A DNA stretch of 64,000 bases, from assembly GCF_031760065.1 (NCBI RefSeq), contig NZ_CP134500.1:4588001-4652000 (forward strand), written 5' to 3'. Positions 1 to 6,842 of this stretch are shown piece by piece. The notes under the pieces were generated by a model, which saw only the letters and a list, made by a program, of their open reading frames with translations, had not been told where the DNA came from and searched no databases. The stretch's first letter is position 1, and each line of letters starts with the position of its first letter. A program made the translations under genes and the position numbers. The stretch is from Streptomyces durocortorensis. Its GTDB lineage: Bacteria; Actinomycetota; Actinomycetes; Streptomycetales; Streptomycetaceae.

Positions 1-2
1 TG

Positions 3-410
3 GTCGGCGCGTCCGGCAAGGTCACCGTCCGCAGCCCCTGGCTCATGGACCCGAAGCTGCCGTTCGACCCGAAGCCCGGCAACAACACCGCGTGGACGAT
101 CGTGAACGGTGAGGGCAGCGGCGGCGACTCCGGCTCCACGACGGACGGGGCCGACGGCGGCTCCGGCGAACCGTCCACCCCGCCGACCACGGCCCCGTCG
201 GCGACCCCGTCCGGCACCTCCGGCACCTCGGCGTCCACCACGTCCGGCGGCAGCTCGGCGGGCACGGCCGGGGGCTCCGGCGGCGGGGGCAGCCTCGCCT
301 CGACGGGGTCGATCGCCCTGATCGCCTCGGGCACGGCGGCCGCGGCGCTGGCGGCGGGCCTGGTGCTCTTCGTGGCGTCCCGGCGACGGGCAGCGCGACA
401 GGCGGCCTGA
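3..410 (+). CDS. LAxTG-anchored surface protein, C-terminal part
   Basis: Only the last 135 codons are present; the gene begins before the window. The visible part is a short folded segment, a long Gly/Ser/Thr/Pro-rich wall-spanning linker, the pentapeptide LASTG (bases 294-308), about 23 hydrophobic residues and an Arg-rich tail (SRRRAAR). This is a cell-wall sorting signal. LAxTG is the form used by class E sortases in Streptomyces, as in the long chaplins, so the protein is probably linked to peptidoglycan on the outer surface. The function of its N-terminal domain cannot be read. Two hairpins follow the stop codon. Confidence 0.8.
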   Translation, partial: VGASGKVTVRSPWLMDPKLPFDPKPGNNTAWTIVNGEGSGGDSGSTTDGADGGSGEPSTPPTTAPSATPSGTSGTSASTTSGGSSAGTAGGSGGGGSLASTGSIALIASGTAAAALAAGLVLFVASRRRAARQAA

Positions 411-430
411 CCAGGGGCTGTCGCAGAGGT

Positions 431-458
431 GGGCGGAGGAGGGAACAGGCCTCCGCCC
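431..458 (+). terminator. Hairpin after surface-protein gene
   Basis: GGGCGGAGG (431-439) pairs perfectly with CCTCCGCCC (450-458) across a 10-base loop, 20 bases after the stop codon. There is no T-run, which is usual for Streptomyces terminators. Confidence 0.5.
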
Positions 459-470
459 GATACGTTCCGA

Positions 471-505
471 TGCGGCCGACCCGGGCGTCCCCGGGGTCGG
501 CCGCA
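471..505 (+). terminator. Second hairpin after surface-protein gene
   Basis: TGCGGCCGACCCGG (471-484) pairs with 491-505 with one bulged base and a 6-base loop. It is a second strong stem in tandem with the previous hairpin. Confidence 0.5.
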
Positions 506-770
506 CATGGGGTGACCGGGCTGCTGTCCCCTGCGGACCGGTCACATGAGCCGGGATGCGGTCCCACGGCGCACCTCGCGGTACGCCACACGTCCCGGCG
601 GAGCCACGCGTGGTTTTCCTACCGATGCCGCCCCTGGTTGGCACGGACACCGGGACCAACGAAGACACCGCCGCCCCGGTCACGCGCCGTACGGGTGAGA
701 CGGGGTCCGAACGCAGATACGGGCCATGTCCGGCGGGCGGAGAACCGTTCCCTCCCCGAGGGCCTGTCGT

Positions 771-798
771 CAGACTCCCGCCTGCCGGGCGGCGTCTG
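771..798 (-). terminator. Hairpin after chorismate mutase
   Basis: Arms 771-782 and 787-798 pair with one mismatch around a 4-base loop, about 30 bases beyond the stop codon of the minus-strand chorismate mutase gene. Confidence 0.5.
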
Positions 799-829
799 GC
801 CCCGGGGGTGTCCGGCGGCCCGTACGGGC

Positions 830-1132
830 TCACACCCGGCCGCGGCACAGCTCCAGGAGCGTCATCGCGAGCGCGGTGCCCGGCTTGCCCAGCGCGTCCC
901 TGTAGTGGCCGAGCACGGCGGTCTCGCGGGAGAGGTTGACCCGGCGGCCGCCCGAGGTGATCCGGGCCTCCTGGATCACCGCCGAGACGGCCATCCGTTC
1001 CTGGACGAGCCCGATGATCCGGTCGTCGAGGGTGTCGATGCGTTCCCGGGCGCCGCCGATCAGGGTGGCGGCCTCGTCGGTGCGGGCCCCGGTGCGCTCG
1101 GCGGCGGTGGCGGCGGTGCTGGTGCTGCTCAT
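830..1132 (-). CDS. Chorismate mutase (AroQ type)
   Basis: 100-residue all-helical chorismate mutase, which converts chorismate to prephenate, the committed step to phenylalanine and tyrosine. The sequence runs through the typical first helix (ARERIDTLDDRIIGLVQERM, about residues 28-47), an Arg-rich middle segment (GGRRVNLSRE) and a final LLELCRGRV helix, the length and layout of stand-alone actinobacterial AroQ enzymes. The ATG has a GGGAG Shine-Dalgarno site about 8 bases upstream. Upstream lie a strong hairpin and a tiny Phe/Tyr-containing reading frame, which suggest control by ribosome-mediated attenuation. It faces away from guaA. Confidence 0.88.
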   Translation of the reverse strand: MSSTSTAATAAERTGARTDEAATLIGGARERIDTLDDRIIGLVQERMAVSAVIQEARITSGGRRVNLSRETAVLGHYRDALGKPGTALAMTLLELCRGRV

Positions 1133-1190
1133 GGTGGTGACTCCCGGTGGGTGGCGACCCCCCGGGGCGCGAGGACCCGGACACGCAGAA

Positions 1191-1216
1191 CGCCCCGGGC
1201 CTGTCGGCCCGGGGCG
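1191..1216 (-). terminator. Putative attenuator hairpin upstream of chorismate mutase
   Basis: CGCCCCGGGCC (1191-1201) and GGCCCGGGGCG (1206-1216) form a perfect 11-bp stem with a 4-base loop. It sits between the leader-peptide stop codon (1241) and the chorismate mutase start (1132), the position expected of an attenuator terminator. There is no T-run. Its regulatory role is inferred. Confidence 0.6.
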
Positions 1217-1240
1217 CCTGGAACGTTGCTTGTCAGTAGC

Positions 1241-1312
1241 TCAAGCAGCACGACCATGGCAGCCGGCGGGCCGGATGCCATAGGTAAAGACGAAGGTCGT
1301 GTGCTGACGCAT
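1241..1312 (-). CDS. Putative Phe/Tyr leader peptide of chorismate mutase
   Basis: A 23-codon frame reads [20 protein letters not shown] followed by RAA and a stop. Phe, Phe and Tyr fall within five codons (FVFTY), both end products of the chorismate mutase branch. A possible promoter (TTGGCG, 18 bases, CATACT) ends 7 bases before the ATG, so the transcript would be leaderless, as is common for small actinobacterial leader peptides. A strong hairpin follows 24 bases after the stop. The peptide would act only by ribosome position: stalling at scarce Phe or Tyr would prevent the terminator from forming. Not proven; the reading frame is also part of a longer chance open frame. Confidence 0.55.
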
Positions 1313-1349
1313 GGGGGACAGTATGGCCCCGCCCCCGAGGACCCGCCAA
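1312..1349 (-). promoter_or_regulatory. Candidate promoter of the leader-peptide/chorismate mutase transcript
   Basis: On the minus strand, TTGGCG (1344-1349) is followed after 18 bases by CATACT (1320-1325), and 7 bases later by the leader ATG. This is a reasonable vegetative promoter giving a leaderless start. Confidence 0.4.
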
Positions 1350-1381
1350 AGCGGGGCCCGCATCGTGAGACGCCCGGCTCG

Positions 1382-1410
1382 GCGGAGGGTCCGCGCGCGG
1401 CCGGTAGAAT
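1382..1410 (+). promoter_or_regulatory. Candidate guaA promoter
   Basis: TAGAAT at 1405-1410 is a good -10 hexamer 42 bases before the guaA GTG. No convincing -35 hexamer is seen 17-18 bases upstream, so the assignment rests on the -10 alone. Confidence 0.3.
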
Positions 1411-1451
1411 CGGGAGAACCGACCCCCTCATCACCGCCGGAAGGCCGCCCC

Positions 1452-3038
1452 GTGCCAGCAGCACCCCCCGCCGCCCCCGACACCACGGCCGACGTGGTCC
1501 TGGTTGTCGACTTCGGCGCGCAGTACGCCCAGCTCATCGCCCGCCGTGTCCGTGAGGCCCGGGTCTACAGCGAGATCGTCCCGTCCACCATGCCGGTGGC
1601 CGAGATGCTGGCCAAGAACCCCCGCGCGATCATCCTCTCCGGCGGCCCCTCGTCGGTGTACGCGGAGGGCGCGCCGTCCCTGGACCGCTCGCTCTTCGAG
1701 GCCGGGGTCCCCGTCTTCGGCATGTGCTACGGCTTCCAGCTGATGGCCACCACGCTCGGCGGCACGGTCGACGACAACGGCGCGCGCGAGTACGGCCGCA
1801 CCCCGCTGCACGTCACGAAGGCGGGCTCGACGCTCTTCGAGGGCACGCCCACCGAGCAGCCGGTGTGGATGTCGCACGGCGACGCCTGCTCGGCGGCCCC
1901 CGAGGGCTTCACCGTCACCGCCTCCACGGACGTGGTCCCGGTCGCGGCCTTCGAGAACGACGAGAAGAAGCTCTACGGCGTCCAGTACCACCCCGAGGTC
2001 CTGCACTCCACGCACGGCCAGCAGGTCCTGGAGCACTTCCTCTACCGCGGCGCGGGCATCGAGCCGAACTGGACCACCACCAACGTGGTCGAGGAGCAGG
2101 TCGCCCTCATCCGCGAGCAGGTCGGCACCAAGCGCGCCATCTGCGGCCTCTCCGGAGGCGTCGACTCCGCGGTCGCCGCCGCCCTCGTGCAGAAGGCCAT
2201 CGGCTCCCAGCTCACCTGCGTGTACGTCGACCACGGGCTGATGCGCAAGGGCGAGACCGAGCAGGTCGAGAAGGACTTCGTGGCCGCGACCGGTGCGAAG
2301 CTGAAGGTGGTCGACGCGGAGAAGCGCTTCCTCGACGCCCTGGCCGGGGTCTCCGACCCGGAGCAGAAGCGGAAGATCATCGGCCGCGAGTTCATCCGCG
2401 TCTTCGAGCAGGCCCAGCTGGAGATCCTCCAGGAGGACGGGCCCGAGGTCGCCTTCCTGGTCCAGGGCACGCTCTACCCGGACGTCGTCGAGTCCGGCGG
2501 CGGCACCGGCACCGCCAACATCAAGTCCCACCACAACGTCGGCGGCCTCCCCGACGACATCGAGTTCCAGCTCGTCGAGCCGCTGCGCCAGCTGTTCAAG
2601 GACGAGGTCCGGATGGTCGGCCAGGAGCTGGGCCTCCCCGAGGAGATCGTCCAGCGCCAGCCGTTCCCCGGCCCCGGCCTCGGCATCCGCATCGTCGGCG
2701 AGGTCACCAAGGACCGCCTGGACCTGCTCCGTGAGGCCGACGCCATCGCCCGCGAGGAGCTGACGGCGGCCGGCCTGGACCGTGACATCTGGCAGTGCCC
2801 GGTGGTCCTCCTCGCCGACGTCCGCTCGGTCGGCGTCCAGGGCGACGGCCGCACCTACGGCCACCCGATCGTCCTGCGCCCGGTCTCCTCCGAGGACGCC
2901 ATGACGGCCGACTGGTCGCGCCTGCCGTACGAGACGCTGGCGAAGATCTCCACCCGCATCACCAACGAGGTCGCCGACGTCAACCGCGTCGTCCTCGACG
3001 TGACGAGCAAGCCGCCGGGGACGATCGAATGGGAGTGA
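1452..3038 (+). CDS. guaA: GMP synthase (glutamine-hydrolysing)
   Basis: 528 residues. GuaA converts XMP, ATP and glutamine to GMP in the cytoplasm. The N-terminal class I glutamine amidotransferase domain (about 14-205) carries the nucleophile Cys92 (GMCYG) with His180 and Glu182 (YHPEV). The ATP-pyrophosphatase domain starts with the P-loop SGGVDS (234-239), and the C-terminal dimerisation domain ends in KPPGTIEWE. The GTG at 1452 was chosen because it is preceded by GGAAGG at good spacing and gives the family length. An open frame extends 47 codons further upstream but runs through the promoter region. It is divergent from the chorismate mutase gene. Confidence 0.97.
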
Positions 3039-3085
3039 CCTCCCCGCCCCCGGTGAGCCCGTAGGGCTTTCCCGGGTCAACGTCC

Positions 3086-3117
3086 ATGCCGTCGCTCATT
3101 CGTTTGGGCGGCGGCAT
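3086..3117 (+). terminator. Hairpin after guaA
   Basis: ATGCCGTCGC (3086-3095) pairs with GCGGCGGCAT (3108-3117), with one wobble pair and a 12-base loop, 48 bases after the guaA stop. Confidence 0.45.
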
Positions 3118-3176
3118 TGTCGTATCTGCTGGGTACGCTGAGTGAAGAGACGAGACTTCGGCGTATGGGAGTAATC

Positions 3177-3788
3177 ATGAGCGCCGCACCCAAGCCCGGG
3201 CTTGAGCAGCAGGAGCCGTACCGGTGGCCCGTTCCGCCGGAGGGCGGCTGGACGGCGGACGACCTCGACCGGATTCCGGGCCTCCCGCCCCACACCGAGC
3301 TGATCGACGGGAGTCTCGTCTTCATGAGTCCGCAGACCGCCTTCCACGGGCGTGCCATGCGTTTGTTCGAGAATGCCCTGCTGGACCAGGCGCCGGCACA
3401 TCTGGATGTCCTGCGCGAGATGACGATCAAACTGGACGAGAAGAACAGGCCGGAGCCGGACGTGCTGGTCTTCCCCGTCGAGGCGAACACAGGCCACCGC
3501 CAGACCTGGTTCCGCCCCGAGGACGTCGTGCTCGCCATTGAGGTGGTCTCGGACGATTCTGTGGAGCGTGATCGCGACGTCAAGCCCCGGAAGTACGCAG
3601 CCGCCGGAGTGCGGCACTTCTGGCGGGTGGAGGCGGACGACGAAGGACTGCCGATCGTCTATGTCTACGAACGCGACCCCGCGCTGGAGGTCTACGTGCC
3701 CACAGGCATCCACCGTGACAAGCTCACCCTGACGGTTCCGTTCCCGCTGGACATCGACCTCACGGCGATCAACCGGCGTCGGCCCTAG
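3177..3788 (+). CDS. Uma2-family (DUF820) putative nuclease
   Basis: 203 residues. Uma2 proteins have a PD-(D/E)XK restriction-endonuclease-like fold and are present in many paralogues in Streptomyces; their substrate is unknown. Family marks visible are the N-terminal PPEGGWTADDLDRIPGLPPHTELIDGSLVF-type block (described here by its ends only), EPDVLVF near residue 95, EVVSDDS near 122 and the Lys-rich RDVKPRKYAAAGV segment. Start ATG 3177 has GGGAG 6 bases upstream; an ATG 12 bases earlier is less well placed. Single gene, apparently transcribed alone. Confidence 0.85.
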   Translation: MSAAPKPGLEQQEPYRWPVPPEGGWTADDLDRIPGLPPHTELIDGSLVFMSPQTAFHGRAMRLFENALLDQAPAHLDVLREMTIKLDEKNRPEPDVLVFPVEANTGHRQTWFRPEDVVLAIEVVSDDSVERDRDVKPRKYAAAGVRHFWRVEADDEGLPIVYVYERDPALEVYVPTGIHRDKLTLTVPFPLDIDLTAINRRRP

Positions 3789-3832
3789 AAACCACTGGCA
3801 CCGCCTCCACTCCCCGTGCCAGGCTCCCCACC

Positions 3833-4588
3833 GTGTCCGCCGAAGAAGTCCGCGCCATCCTGTCCGCCGCCGGGAACCACCGCCTCACCTGGAACACCCC
3901 GCTCTCCGAAGGACACGCGGCCCGGCTCGTAGCCGCCTGCGCCCCCGCTCCCGGGGCACGGATCGTCGATCTCGGCTCCGGCTGGGGCGAGTTGCTGATG
4001 CGGCTCGTCGAAGCCGCGCCGGGGGCCGCCGGGGACGGCGTCGAGACCGACCCCGCCGCCGTGGCGCGCGGACGGAAGCTCGCCGAGGAGCGAGGGCTCG
4101 GTGACCGGGTGCGGTTCCACGAGGTGCCCGCCGCCGAGTGGGCCGAGGGCGGATACGACCTCGCCGTCTCCATCGGGTCCTCGCACGCCTGGCCCGGTAC
4201 GACCAGGGAGGCCCTGACCGCCCTGCGCGCCGCCGTACGGCCCGGAGGCCGGGTGCTCCTCGGCGAGGGGGTCTGGCTGAAGGCCCCGACGTCCGCCGCG
4301 CTGGAAGGGCTCGGGGCCGAGCCCGGGGACTTCGGGTCGCTGCTGGAGCTGATCCGGCTGGCGGAGTCCGTCGGACTGCACGCGCTCCAGGTCACCGTCG
4401 CCGACCAGCACGAATGGGACCTCTTCGAGTCGGAGGGTCCGATCGGGCGCGGGCAGCGCTGGGCGCTGGAGAACCCGGGCCATCCGCTGTACGGCGAGGT
4501 GATGGCCGAGGTCGACGCCCGCCGCACCGGCTACTACGCCGGCTACCGCTCGTATCTGGGCCTCGCCTACCTGGTGCTCAGCACCTGA
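3833..4588 (+). CDS. Class I SAM-dependent methyltransferase
   Basis: 251 residues. A Rossmann-type methyltransferase: motif I is IVDLGSGWGELL (about 45-56), followed by an acidic residue at the end of the second strand (VETDP) and the YDLAVSIGSSHAW motif IV region. The product after that (GGRVLLGEGVW) is motif VI-like. The C-terminus has a Tyr-rich stretch (TGYYAGYRSYLGLAY). The substrate is unknown. The GTG start is poorly supported by a Shine-Dalgarno site. It lies 44 bases after the Uma2 gene and may be cotranscribed with it. Confidence 0.8.
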   Translation: MSAEEVRAILSAAGNHRLTWNTPLSEGHAARLVAACAPAPGARIVDLGSGWGELLMRLVEAAPGAAGDGVETDPAAVARGRKLAEERGLGDRVRFHEVPAAEWAEGGYDLAVSIGSSHAWPGTTREALTALRAAVRPGGRVLLGEGVWLKAPTSAALEGLGAEPGDFGSLLELIRLAESVGLHALQVTVADQHEWDLFESEGPIGRGQRWALENPGHPLYGEVMAEVDARRTGYYAGYRSYLGLAYLVLST

Positions 4589-4668
4589 CCTGCGCCCCAC
4601 CCCTTTTCACCACCCCCACCCGGCGGTAACTTCCGGTCCCGTACGCCCTGGGAACCCGAGGAGCCGCC

Positions 4669-5460
4669 ATGTCAGAGCCGGTCGCCGTGCCCGCCGCCCC
4701 CGCCCCGATCCCCGTCGAACAGCTTCAGTTCGCGATGCCGCCCGTCCACGCGTCGCCGGGGGAGGAACGCGCGTACCGCAGGGAGCGGCTCGCGGGGGCA
4801 CTGCGGTTGTTCGGGCAGCTCGGGTACGAGGACGGGGTCTCCGGGCACATCACCGTGCGCGACCCGGAGCTGGAGGACTGCTTCTGGGTCAACCCGTTCG
4901 GCGCGCCCTTCGCCGACATCACCCCACAGGACCTGATCCTCGTCAACGGCGACGGGCAGGTCGTCCGGGGCCGCTTCCACGTCAACCAGGCCGCGTTCGC
5001 CGTGCACGCGGCGGTGCACCGGGCCCGGCCCGGCGCCGTGGCCGTCGCGCACACCCACTCCGTGCACGGGCGGGCCCTCGCCGCGCTCGGGGAGCCGGTC
5101 GAGCCGATCACCCAGGAATCCTGCGCCTTCTACGAGGACCACGCGCTGTACGACGCGTACACGGGCGTTGTCGTGGACGAGGAGGAAGGGCGGCGCATCG
5201 CCGACACGCTCGGGCCGCACAAGGCGGTCATCCTGCGCAACCACGGGCTGCTGACCGTCGGCGACTCCGTGGACGCGGCGGCCTGGTGGTTCCTGACCCT
5301 GGAGCGCGCCTGCCAGGTGCAGCTGCTGGCGCGGGCCGCCGGGAAGCCCGTGCTCATCGCGCACCAGGACGCCGTCACCACCCGCGAACACCTCGGCAGC
5401 GACCTGGTGGCCTGGATCAACTACCAGCCCCTGTGGCAGCGGGTCAGTCGAACATTCTGA
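4669..5460 (+). CDS. Class II aldolase/adducin-family protein
   Basis: 263 residues with the full class II aldolase fold seen in fuculose- and ribulose-phosphate aldolases. Zn-binding histidines are visible in AHTHSVHGRAL (about residue 126) and in ILRNHGLLTVG (about 190); Glu in the QESCAFYED segment could be catalytic. SGHITVRDP near residue 57 is the substrate-phosphate region. Family members also act on non-phosphorylated ketoacids, so the reaction cannot be assigned. The ATG has GAGGAG at good spacing. No linked sugar pathway is nearby. Confidence 0.85.
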   Translation: MSEPVAVPAAPAPIPVEQLQFAMPPVHASPGEERAYRRERLAGALRLFGQLGYEDGVSGHITVRDPELEDCFWVNPFGAPFADITPQDLILVNGDGQVVRGRFHVNQAAFAVHAAVHRARPGAVAVAHTHSVHGRALAALGEPVEPITQESCAFYEDHALYDAYTGVVVDEEEGRRIADTLGPHKAVILRNHGLLTVGDSVDAAAWWFLTLERACQVQLLARAAGKPVLIAHQDAVTTREHLGSDLVAWINYQPLWQRVSRTF

Positions 5461-5573
5461 CGGTCCGGGCCCGCCGGTCGCCCCGATGCGGGAACTCCTC
5501 GCCCGGTGCGGCACAATTCGCTGATATCGCAAGTGAGTTGGCTGTACCGGGGCGGGAAAGGGCGTAATCCTCC

Positions 5574-6842
5574 GTGGCGTTGGACGAGGCAAGGACGAGC
5601 GGCACCCACGGCGGCGGCTGCACCTGCGGCGACTGCCCGCACGGCGCGCGCGAAGGGCACCGGCGCGCCGTCGCGGCCTTCCTCGCCAAGCGCGACGAAC
5701 TGGCCGCGGGCAACGGCCTGCCCGCCGGGGTCGCCCAGTCCGCCTCCGCGTCCCGGCAGTGGGTCTCCGACGAGCTGACCGGCTCCGCCCGGACCGTCGC
5801 CGAACGGGCCCGGGAGGCCGGGGACGCCTGGCTCCACCAGGTGTGGCGGGGCACACTGTTCGCCGTGTGGGGTGCGGCCGGGGCCCTCCTCGTCGGCGCC
5901 TGCGTCACCGCGATCGGGGCCGGCTGGTCCACCGCCCGCACCGCCGGTCTGCTCGCTGCCCTCGTCACCGCCGGTCTGCTCACCGCCGCCGCCCGCTTCC
6001 ACCGCGCGCGCGGGGGCCTCCTCGCCCCGTTGATCGGCGAGGACAACCGGCTCTCCACCTCCCGGGCGGTTGCCGCCGCCTGGGTGCTGCTCGCCGTCTT
6101 CGCGGTTCTTGTTCTCGCACTCCAGCTGGCCGGGGCCGCCGACCCCTCCGACCGGGACGCGCTGATCGAGGGGCTCGACCTCGTACGGTCCGCCGGGGTG
6201 GTGACCGTGCTGGCGCTGGTGTGCGCGGTCGCCGTCCTCGTACGCCGCGTGGTGACCGTACGGGTGCTGGGCCAGCGCCTCCAGAAGCTGCGCGCGGACC
6301 GGCCGCGCGCAGCCGATCTGCTCACCGACGACTCGGGGCGCGGCTCCTTCACCGATGTGCAGTACGTGCTGGTCAGCGCCGTCGCCGTGCTGTTCGCCGC
6401 GGTCCGCCTGGCCCGCCGCCCCGAGCAGCTGCCCGATCTGCCGTGGGGGCTCGCGCTGCTGGTGGCCGTCTCGGCGGCGACCTACTTCGCCGGGAAGTAC
6501 ACGGAGGGCGGGCGTCCGGTCGTGCTGTCCGTCGTCCGGGCCCGGGAGGCCGGGGACCTGGACGCGCCGATCCGGACCGGCGACGACATCGAGATCCGGG
6601 GTGCGGGCTTCGTGCCGCCCGGCGCGGGCAGCCCCGACCGGCTGGCCCGGCTCGTCGTCCGCATCGGCACGGTCCACGTCCATGTCCCCCTCATCCCGGT
6701 CGCCGGAGGCTTCGCCAACCCGGCCGACACCGTCCTGACCGTGCCCGTCCCGGTCGAGGTGGAGCCGGGCACTGTGGACGTCCAGGTCGTCACCGCCGCC
6801 GGGGTGGAGACCAACCGCTGCCCGATCGACGTCACGGACTGA
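5574..6842 (+). CDS. Membrane protein with N-terminal Cys cluster and C-terminal beta domain
   Basis: 422 residues, not assigned to a known family. The N-terminus carries GGGCTCGDCPHG (CxCxxC plus His), a possible metal site, then a charged helix. Hydrophobic segments follow at about 97-120, 124-142, 165-187, 205-228, 263-280 and 290-307. The last 100 residues are Val-rich beta sequence (IEIRGAGFVPPG ... VDVQVVTAAGVETN) resembling an IPT/TIG-type immunoglobulin-like domain. GTG start with a weak ribosome site. It stands between the aldolase and DoxX genes, on the same strand as both. Confidence 0.7.
   Translation: MALDEARTSGTHGGGCTCGDCPHGAREGHRRAVAAFLAKRDELAAGNGLPAGVAQSASASRQWVSDELTGSARTVAERAREAGDAWLHQVWRGTLFAVWGAAGALLVGACVTAIGAGWSTARTAGLLAALVTAGLLTAAARFHRARGGLLAPLIGEDNRLSTSRAVAAAWVLLAVFAVLVLALQLAGAADPSDRDALIEGLDLVRSAGVVTVLALVCAVAVLVRRVVTVRVLGQRLQKLRADRPRAADLLTDDSGRGSFTDVQYVLVSAVAVLFAAVRLARRPEQLPDLPWGLALLVAVSAATYFAGKYTEGGRPVVLSVVRAREAGDLDAPIRTGDDIEIRGAGFVPPGAGSPDRLARLVVRIGTVHVHVPLIPVAGGFANPADTVLTVPVPVEVEPGTVDVQVVTAAGVETNRCPIDVTD

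Follow-up and report, generated by a model that had tools for sequence, protein, structure and literature searches.

Does a leader rich in Phe and Tyr codons govern the chorismate mutase gene of Streptomyces durocortorensis? In actinobacteria, the Phe/Tyr branch also feeds aromatic natural products. Chorismate mutase (CM) is described, in the available part of PMC11802643, as the enzyme that commits chorismate to Phe and Tyr. The window analysed here, a stretch of 64,000 nucleotides of contig NZ_CP134500.1, contains a CM gene for which an earlier reading of the DNA (hereafter, the original prediction) had proposed a ribosome-mediated attenuator, composed of a 23-codon frame with the residues FVFTY, a leaderless-type promoter and a perfect 11-bp hairpin ahead of the gene. 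The frame, the hairpin and CM were confirmed in attenuator order on the minus strand, both by their coordinates and by the CM domain matches.

Organization of the chorismate mutase locus

The locus lies between guaA, which is encoded on the plus strand and recognized by its GMP synthase domains, and the gene for a 100-aa CM of the AroQ type (830..1132, minus strand; PF01817, 30.6 bits at a cut-off of 27; NCBIfam NF005894, the PRK07857 equivalog, 119.8 bits at a cut-off of 73). Read along the minus strand, on which all the features described below are located, a CATACT element is followed by 7 bases, the ATG at 1312, 22 further codons, the TGA at 1243-1241, a hairpin, 58 bases and the CM start. 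A terminator of guaA was ruled out, guaA being on the other strand and pointing away.

The leader frame (1241..1312, with its ATG at 1312-1310), assigned by ORF reading and by homologous frames, carries at 1280..1294 the putative regulatory codons TTC GTC TTT ACC TAT (FVFTY), as judged from sequence and codon conservation. The CATACT element (1320..1325), 7 nt ahead of the ATG, is a candidate -10 element of a leaderless promoter. At 1100-1450, no sigma-70 promoter was found by a generic scanner and no -35 consensus was evident.

Several RNA structures can be formed by the leader, and the original prediction had left out three of its parts, namely a hairpin just past the Tyr codon, an antiterminator and a stem holding the leader stop codon. 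The first of them, hairpin 1 (regions 1:2; 1253..1285), is an inverted repeat, ACC-U-AUGGCA-n-CCGG / CCGG-n-UGCCAU-GGU, also seen in covariation. According to folding and pairing, the predicted antiterminator (regions 2:3; 1213..1264) would join GGC(U)GCC(A)UGG at 1264-1254 with CCAGGCGCC at 1221-1213, and could be extended by pairing of CGGCCCG (1273-1267) with CGGGCCG (1211-1205). Its apical part is the stop-codon stem GCUUG/CAAGC (1228..1246), identified by covariation, in whose 5' arm the leader stop codon begins. The terminator hairpin (regions 3:4; 1191..1216), another inverted repeat with covariation, is the perfect 11-bp stem CGCCCCGGGCC-GACA-GGCCCGGGGCG, with arms at 1216-1206 and 1201-1191, followed from 1190 by a tail that is T-enriched by count. 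Overall, folding of the leader RNA beat 199 of 200 dinucleotide shuffles (z -2.78).

Conservation of the leader frame and its Phe and Tyr codons

Conservation was examined in 110 rows, made up of the window, the best 80 of 166 confirmed CM relatives and 29 loci from a genus draw, with some genomes entered twice. The alignment across Streptomyces genomes that came with the original prediction as a check shows conservation of both the Phe/Tyr codons and the hairpins, with modest covariation in the antiterminator. An automatic motif recovered the leader in 108 of the 110 rows. In one of the two misses (L099) the leader is visible by eye, and the row failed the orientation test because it has ATC where the others have ACC; the other (L103) offers only about 116 bases between CM and the contig end.

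An [N]A[TC]ACT element precedes an in-frame start codon by 5 to 7 nt in all 108 rows (6 nt in 80, 7 in 27 and 5 in one). The -10 element with its short spacing would fit the leaderless-type promoter originally proposed; the lack of a -35 element and of a scanner-detected sigma-70 promoter counts against it. Because the spacing is kept throughout, transcription probably starts at the leader ATG, and not downstream of 1241, a placement that would be incompatible with the attenuator as predicted. Eight of the 108 rows have 1, 2, 3 or 5 extra codons before TYG, and each of them retains the in-frame start beside the -10 element. The frame changes after FTYG in three rows (L037, L067 and L106), and therefore the C-terminal part of the peptide is not strictly kept.

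Numbering from the central Phe codon, codon 0 is TTT in 107 rows and TTC in one, codon +2 is TAT in all 108, and codon -2 is TTC in 101, TAC (Tyr) in three, TCC in two and GTC in two. The retention of TTT and TAT is striking since both are scarce in the 34 long ORFs of the window, where TTT accounts for 8 of 367 Phe codons and TAT for 25 of 295 Tyr codons. The hairpin that starts at the Tyr codon may account for part of the constraint on TAT. A short 5' frame with codons for the pathway end products, as expected of an attenuator, thus appears to be present in the 108 rows, its length changing by whole codons.

Of 84 genomes of the same genus, 81 were matched by a covariance model built from 98 rows, none of these matches being weaker than 2.1e-15. 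Among the three left unmatched, G099 and G123 also lack a CM match, and in the third (G149) the leader would fall off the contig, because CM begins at contig base 81. Extra copies of the leader were sought among 22 model matches in the same genome (E up to 10), and the three next best (L115-L117), when read, contained no Phe/Tyr leader.

Covariation in the leader RNA

Covariation was assessed in 35 divergent rows aligned by the covariance model. In the structures covered by the model, namely hairpin 1, the stop-codon stem and the terminator, 95.6% of the cells were paired vs. 88.3% in shuffles, and changes on both sides were found at 17 of 29 pairs vs. 5.4 in shuffles; on each of five measures, all 500 shuffles scored lower. 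The test favours these structures, since the alignment was fitted to them. Slid controls fell far below the real alignment. Covariation is strong in the terminator and the stop-codon stem, weaker in hairpin 1 and modest in the antiterminator. Indeed, the terminator hairpin is the best-paired helix (99.5% of cells), with both-side changes at 7 of 11 pairs, and in the stop-codon stem, gapped in 7 to 9 of the 35 rows, 4 of 5 pairs have changed in both arms (for instance, GCUUG/CAAGC vs. GUCUG/CAGAC). In hairpin 1, 92.2% of the cells are paired and both sides change at 6 of 13 pairs, each in one to three rows.

The antiterminator lies outside the structures of the covariance model. Its cells are paired at 97.2% in the 98 close rows, where it shows no covariation, and at 84.9% in the 35 divergent rows, where three pairs changed on both sides, a value reached by 16 of 500 shuffles. 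Its possible extension did no better than shuffles on pairs changed in the divergent set (317 of 500). In a swap test on 36 unique rows, six close ones among them picked by hand, region 2 and the left arm of the terminator behaved as cognates, with permuted partners as good in 2 of 5000 cases, shared ancestry being still included in this figure.

The anchor pattern used to select a further divergent set of 33 rows contained TT[TC] and T[AT]TGG and thereby biased the codon counts of that set; L148, L159 and L160 (imperfect stems), as well as L175 and L184 (no anchor), were left out of it. L178, with a misassigned stem, was left out of both the swap test and the divergent T-tail count. Less biased codon counts come from the 35 model-picked rows, which were read by eye: codon 0 encodes Phe in all 35, and codon +2 encodes Tyr in 33, the two exceptions being L147 with Phe and L175 with Gln.

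Predicted folding switch at the Phe and Tyr codons

The effect of ribosome position was modelled on transcripts that stop where the left arm of the terminator is complete and the right arm has yet to be made; 13 nt from the A-site codon were masked, and what was left was folded at 30 C. With TTT in the A site, every one of the 108 rows paired at least 7 of the 11 left-arm nt upstream; with TAT there, 70 did so, with the next Gly codon 4, and with later codons 0 to 14, the ranking of Phe over Tyr hinging on the assumed 13-nt footprint. As this pairing drops from 108 to 70 to 4 rows, the antiterminator is predicted to be lost as the ribosome leaves the Phe/Tyr stretch. Folding of the ribosome-masked RNA thus places the switch at the Phe/Tyr codons and lends model support to the Phe/Tyr attenuation that had originally been suggested.

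With the A site at TTT and the right arm not yet made, the antiterminator is the minimum free energy (MFE) structure of the window RNA. At least 9 nt of the left arm were paired in 108 of 108 real sequences vs. 1113 of 4320 shuffles, and the mean MFE was -36.7 vs. -29.4 kcal/mol; in energy, 38 of the 108 rows beat all 40 of their own shuffles and 73 beat all but at most one. By folding, then, the antiterminator and the terminator would be mutually exclusive structures that share an arm, and covariation in the former is modest.

Some results of the model count against the attenuation reading. Antitermination would likewise result if the ribosome stalled before reaching the Phe codons (100 to 105 of 108 rows). 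In the ribosome-free RNA without the right arm, the window folds as the antiterminator and L065 as hairpin 1, which lends no support to termination by default when there is no translation. Once both arms are made, the outer pairs of the terminator reach a mean probability of 0.97 in the free RNA and, with a ribosome in place, of 0.94 (A site at the stop codon), 0.88 (TTT) and 0.86 (TAT). With the terminator thus ahead in each of these four states once the right arm exists, antitermination would have to be kinetic.

The leader in other genera and families

In a draw from the family of the window, CM was matched at E 0.001 or better in 93 of 121 genomes. Among 20 hand-chosen stretches from 16 other genera of this family, a leader with F-[T/S]-Y-G or FFFYG was found at 18 loci and in 14 genera, and was missing at L175, which reads VFTQG, and at L184. 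Within the genus itself, 15 divergent genomes (L147-L161) likewise have the leader, as do three genomes of a second family, f3 (L162, L164 and L166), with CM downstream where visible. Outside the family and within the same order, 11 genomes had a model match and five were fetched, of which L163 and L165, without a leader, were dropped before later counts. Phe and Tyr replace one another in several places: TTC becomes TAC in 3 of the 108 close rows, TAT becomes TTT in L147, and the residues are FFFY in L174 and FFY in L162. Six leaders (L147, L148, L150, L151, L156 and L157) carry a Trp codon beside the Phe/Tyr codons, as in FWFTYG or VWFSYG, which possibly links them to all three aromatic amino acids.

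A draw from the class yielded this type of CM in 38 of 148 genomes, 11 of them in the genus of the window, and 29 CM loci were fetched from the other 27. An F[x]Y[G/A/Q] motif in a short ORF before CM was found at 18 of the 29 loci in sense, at none of the 29 in antisense and in 4 of 1450 dinucleotide shuffles, a criterion that was set after the first 20 loci, of which 15 pass, and is passed by 3 of the later 9. These later 9 loci include two second CM copies and one stretch cut to 155 bases. L241 and L253 show the motif by eye and fail the automatic criterion. Family f6 passes it at 4 of 9 loci, and leaders read, for example, QRRFFYGYR in f6, TRFFYGYR in f37, FFFYG in f33, and FYGDR or FYGGR in f20. 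With masked folding, pairing of the left arm falls again in f6, f33 and f39 as the ribosome moves beyond the Tyr codon; no clear terminator switch was obtained by this procedure in f20, L254 or L258, the hairpin taken by the finder in L254 differing from the one seen by eye. At the f20 loci (L239-L242, L248-L250, L252 and L257), a short F-Y-G frame before CM is followed by a hairpin such as GGGGACCG/CGGTCCCC, and neither a T-tailed terminator nor a clear left-arm switch was found at them; the output stage may differ in f20. Two loci of genus g51 in f6 (L236 and L246) have no F-Y-G leader before CM and share a block, GTCTGTTTCACGGTGAAnGAACT followed by CGGTAACrCG, upstream of the gene.

A different target gene was met at L190 (1486-1658) and L191, both of f30, where a leader with RFFSYGDAPEAARAGR and a terminator hairpin precede DAHP synthase (PRK08673), encoded by the first gene of the pathway; the switch profile of these two loci in masked folding is mixed. 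A 12-base pattern was also followed outside the genus, and 25 of the 27 genomes that carry it (one locus each) were set aside for their long frames, for an A+T-richer genome or for absence of the layout; the remaining two, which look like leaders, are L190 and L191. We give even odds to the proposal that a common plan, an F-x-Y-G leader at the 5' end with a hairpin opening right behind the Tyr codon, is an old control of monofunctional CM across the class, that one lineage has either retained it on DAHP synthase or transferred it there, and that its output stage has changed, being a terminator in some families and something else in f20. A single leader plan could then be compared across families and across two target genes, CM and DAHP synthase.

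Proposed mechanism and rival explanations

The locus carries a Phe/Tyr-coded leader with a conserved RNA switch, and of this we are confident. We put at roughly 85% the probability that, in the family of the window, it acts by ribosome-mediated transcription attenuation of the trp/phe type in response to the supply of Phe (and Tyr); for other families, our confidence in the output stage is far lower. RNA polymerase would start at or beside the leader ATG, and a ribosome would begin at once on the leaderless message. When Phe-tRNA (or Tyr-tRNA) is scarce, this ribosome would stall at TTC, TTT or TAT and cover the 5' arm of hairpin 1, leaving the 3' arm free to pair with CCAGGCGCC and the left arm of the terminator; the resulting antiterminator, capped by the stop-codon stem, would allow read-through into CM. 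When both amino acids are plentiful, the ribosome would clear the Gly codon and reach the stop codon inside the antiterminator, which would be broken there, and the terminator would form. The start site, translation, stalling, termination and the response to Phe vs. Tyr are steps that we infer.

The terminator is where this scheme meets its strongest competitor, a leader peptide that controls translation, RNA stability or Rho access, its stalled ribosome exposing the CM ribosome-binding site or a Rho site, instead of intrinsic termination. The tail speaks to both. In the 108 close rows, the 14 nt past the stem hold a mean of 5.1 T vs. 1.6 further downstream, and at least 5 T occur there in 84 rows vs. 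none of 108 further downstream; this number is reached in only 7 of 32 divergent rows, and the generic scanner finds no T-run terminator at 1100-1450. As a candidate intrinsic terminator, the G+C-rich hairpin is well supported, and its tail shows T enrichment, more among the close rows than among the divergent ones, and has no T run. Such a weak tail would suit the competitor, as would f20, with its F-Y-G leader and first hairpin before CM and neither a T-tailed terminator nor a clear left-arm switch. However, the best-paired covarying helix is a G+C-rich, terminator-like hairpin followed by T-enriched sequence in most close rows, and 58 bases of the window separate it from the CM start further downstream; we consider control at these other levels unlikely.

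Attenuation by tRNA supply is also to be weighed against arrest by the nascent peptide, in which a conserved F-x-Y-G peptide would stall the ribosome on a small molecule and not on uncharged tRNA. The retention of Tyr-Gly across several families would agree with it, but the Gly codon (GGC/GGG) opens an arm of hairpin 1, so that RNA pairing can account for Gly; moreover, the residues ahead of the Phe codons vary, the C-terminal peptide is frame-shifted in 3 of 108 rows, and Phe and Tyr interchange, all of which makes an arrest peptide very improbable. Slightly lower still do we rate a structured RNA or DNA element (a small RNA, a protein site or an intergenic terminator) in which the frame is incidental. 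Nucleotide conservation does continue beyond the leader stop codon, but the frame varies in length by whole codons while its start spacing stays the same, Phe/Tyr are retained through codon changes, and a search of window positions 1-6000 against 4227 Rfam families, T-boxes and riboswitches included, gave no match at E up to 1.

Relation to known attenuators

An attenuator for a CM, of which the original prediction knew none, exists in E. coli, where the pheL leader controls pheA and couples the supply of Phe-tRNA to CM-prephenate dehydratase (PMC11802643, in its accessible sections). By description, the present locus is like pheL-pheA in that a Phe-responsive leader would precede a gene with chorismate mutase activity, but differs from it in that the fused CM-prephenate dehydratase is replaced by a separate 100-aa AroQ CM, the message is probably leaderless and Tyr codons are present too. 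In Corynebacterium glutamicum, the aroR-aroF leader contains Phe-Tyr-Phe and responds to Phe and not to Tyr (same sections of PMC11802643). The likeness, again by description, is that of an actinobacterial aromatic-pathway leader with Phe and Tyr codons, whereas the target there is an operon with DAHP synthase and here it is CM. Neshat 2014 is reportedly the source of the aroR-aroF attenuator. The leader before DAHP synthase at L190 and L191 may be a closer analogue of aroR-aroF.

In Streptomyces, the leader-peptide attenuators trpL1, trpL2, leuL and ilvL, several of them leaderless and some without a U-rich stretch, are described in the available parts of PMC8079986 and PMC1262725; they share with the CM locus a leader peptide and hairpins before amino-acid genes, and serve other amino acids. 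The eight attenuators in Table 4 of PMC8079986, for S. lividans, include none for CM, and the accessible portion of the 2005 survey reports no attenuator for Phe/Tyr operons in Actinobacteria (PMC1262725), a gap that a CM attenuator, if true, would fill. In the open-access literature that we searched, no report of a CM leader or attenuator in Streptomyces was found. This attenuator could be among those listed in Lopatovskaya 2010, and the five genomes of Stav 2019 presumably include no actinobacterium. Phe/Tyr uORFs for shikimate genes are described by Stav 2019 (PMC6429828, in part) and an aroF leader in Acholeplasma by PMC8632094 (likewise in part), and no CM leader was found in the available text of PMC8269248, PMC13236596 and PMC1173090 (main text only).

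As far as open-access searches reach, the CM leader would appear to be new, its kind, classical attenuation, being already known. In our judgement, its uncommon traits are its reach across families, the strict use of TTT and TAT in a G+C-rich genome and the stop codon inside the antiterminator. A conserved CM attenuator, if true, would provide a directly testable control point and would account for the retention of TTT and TAT, both of them rare. Besides the CM of the window, two further CM_2 domain matches occur in the same genome, at G000:C1:1461212-1461448 (L001) and 3107231-3107464 (L002), with Pfam scores above that of the window CM.
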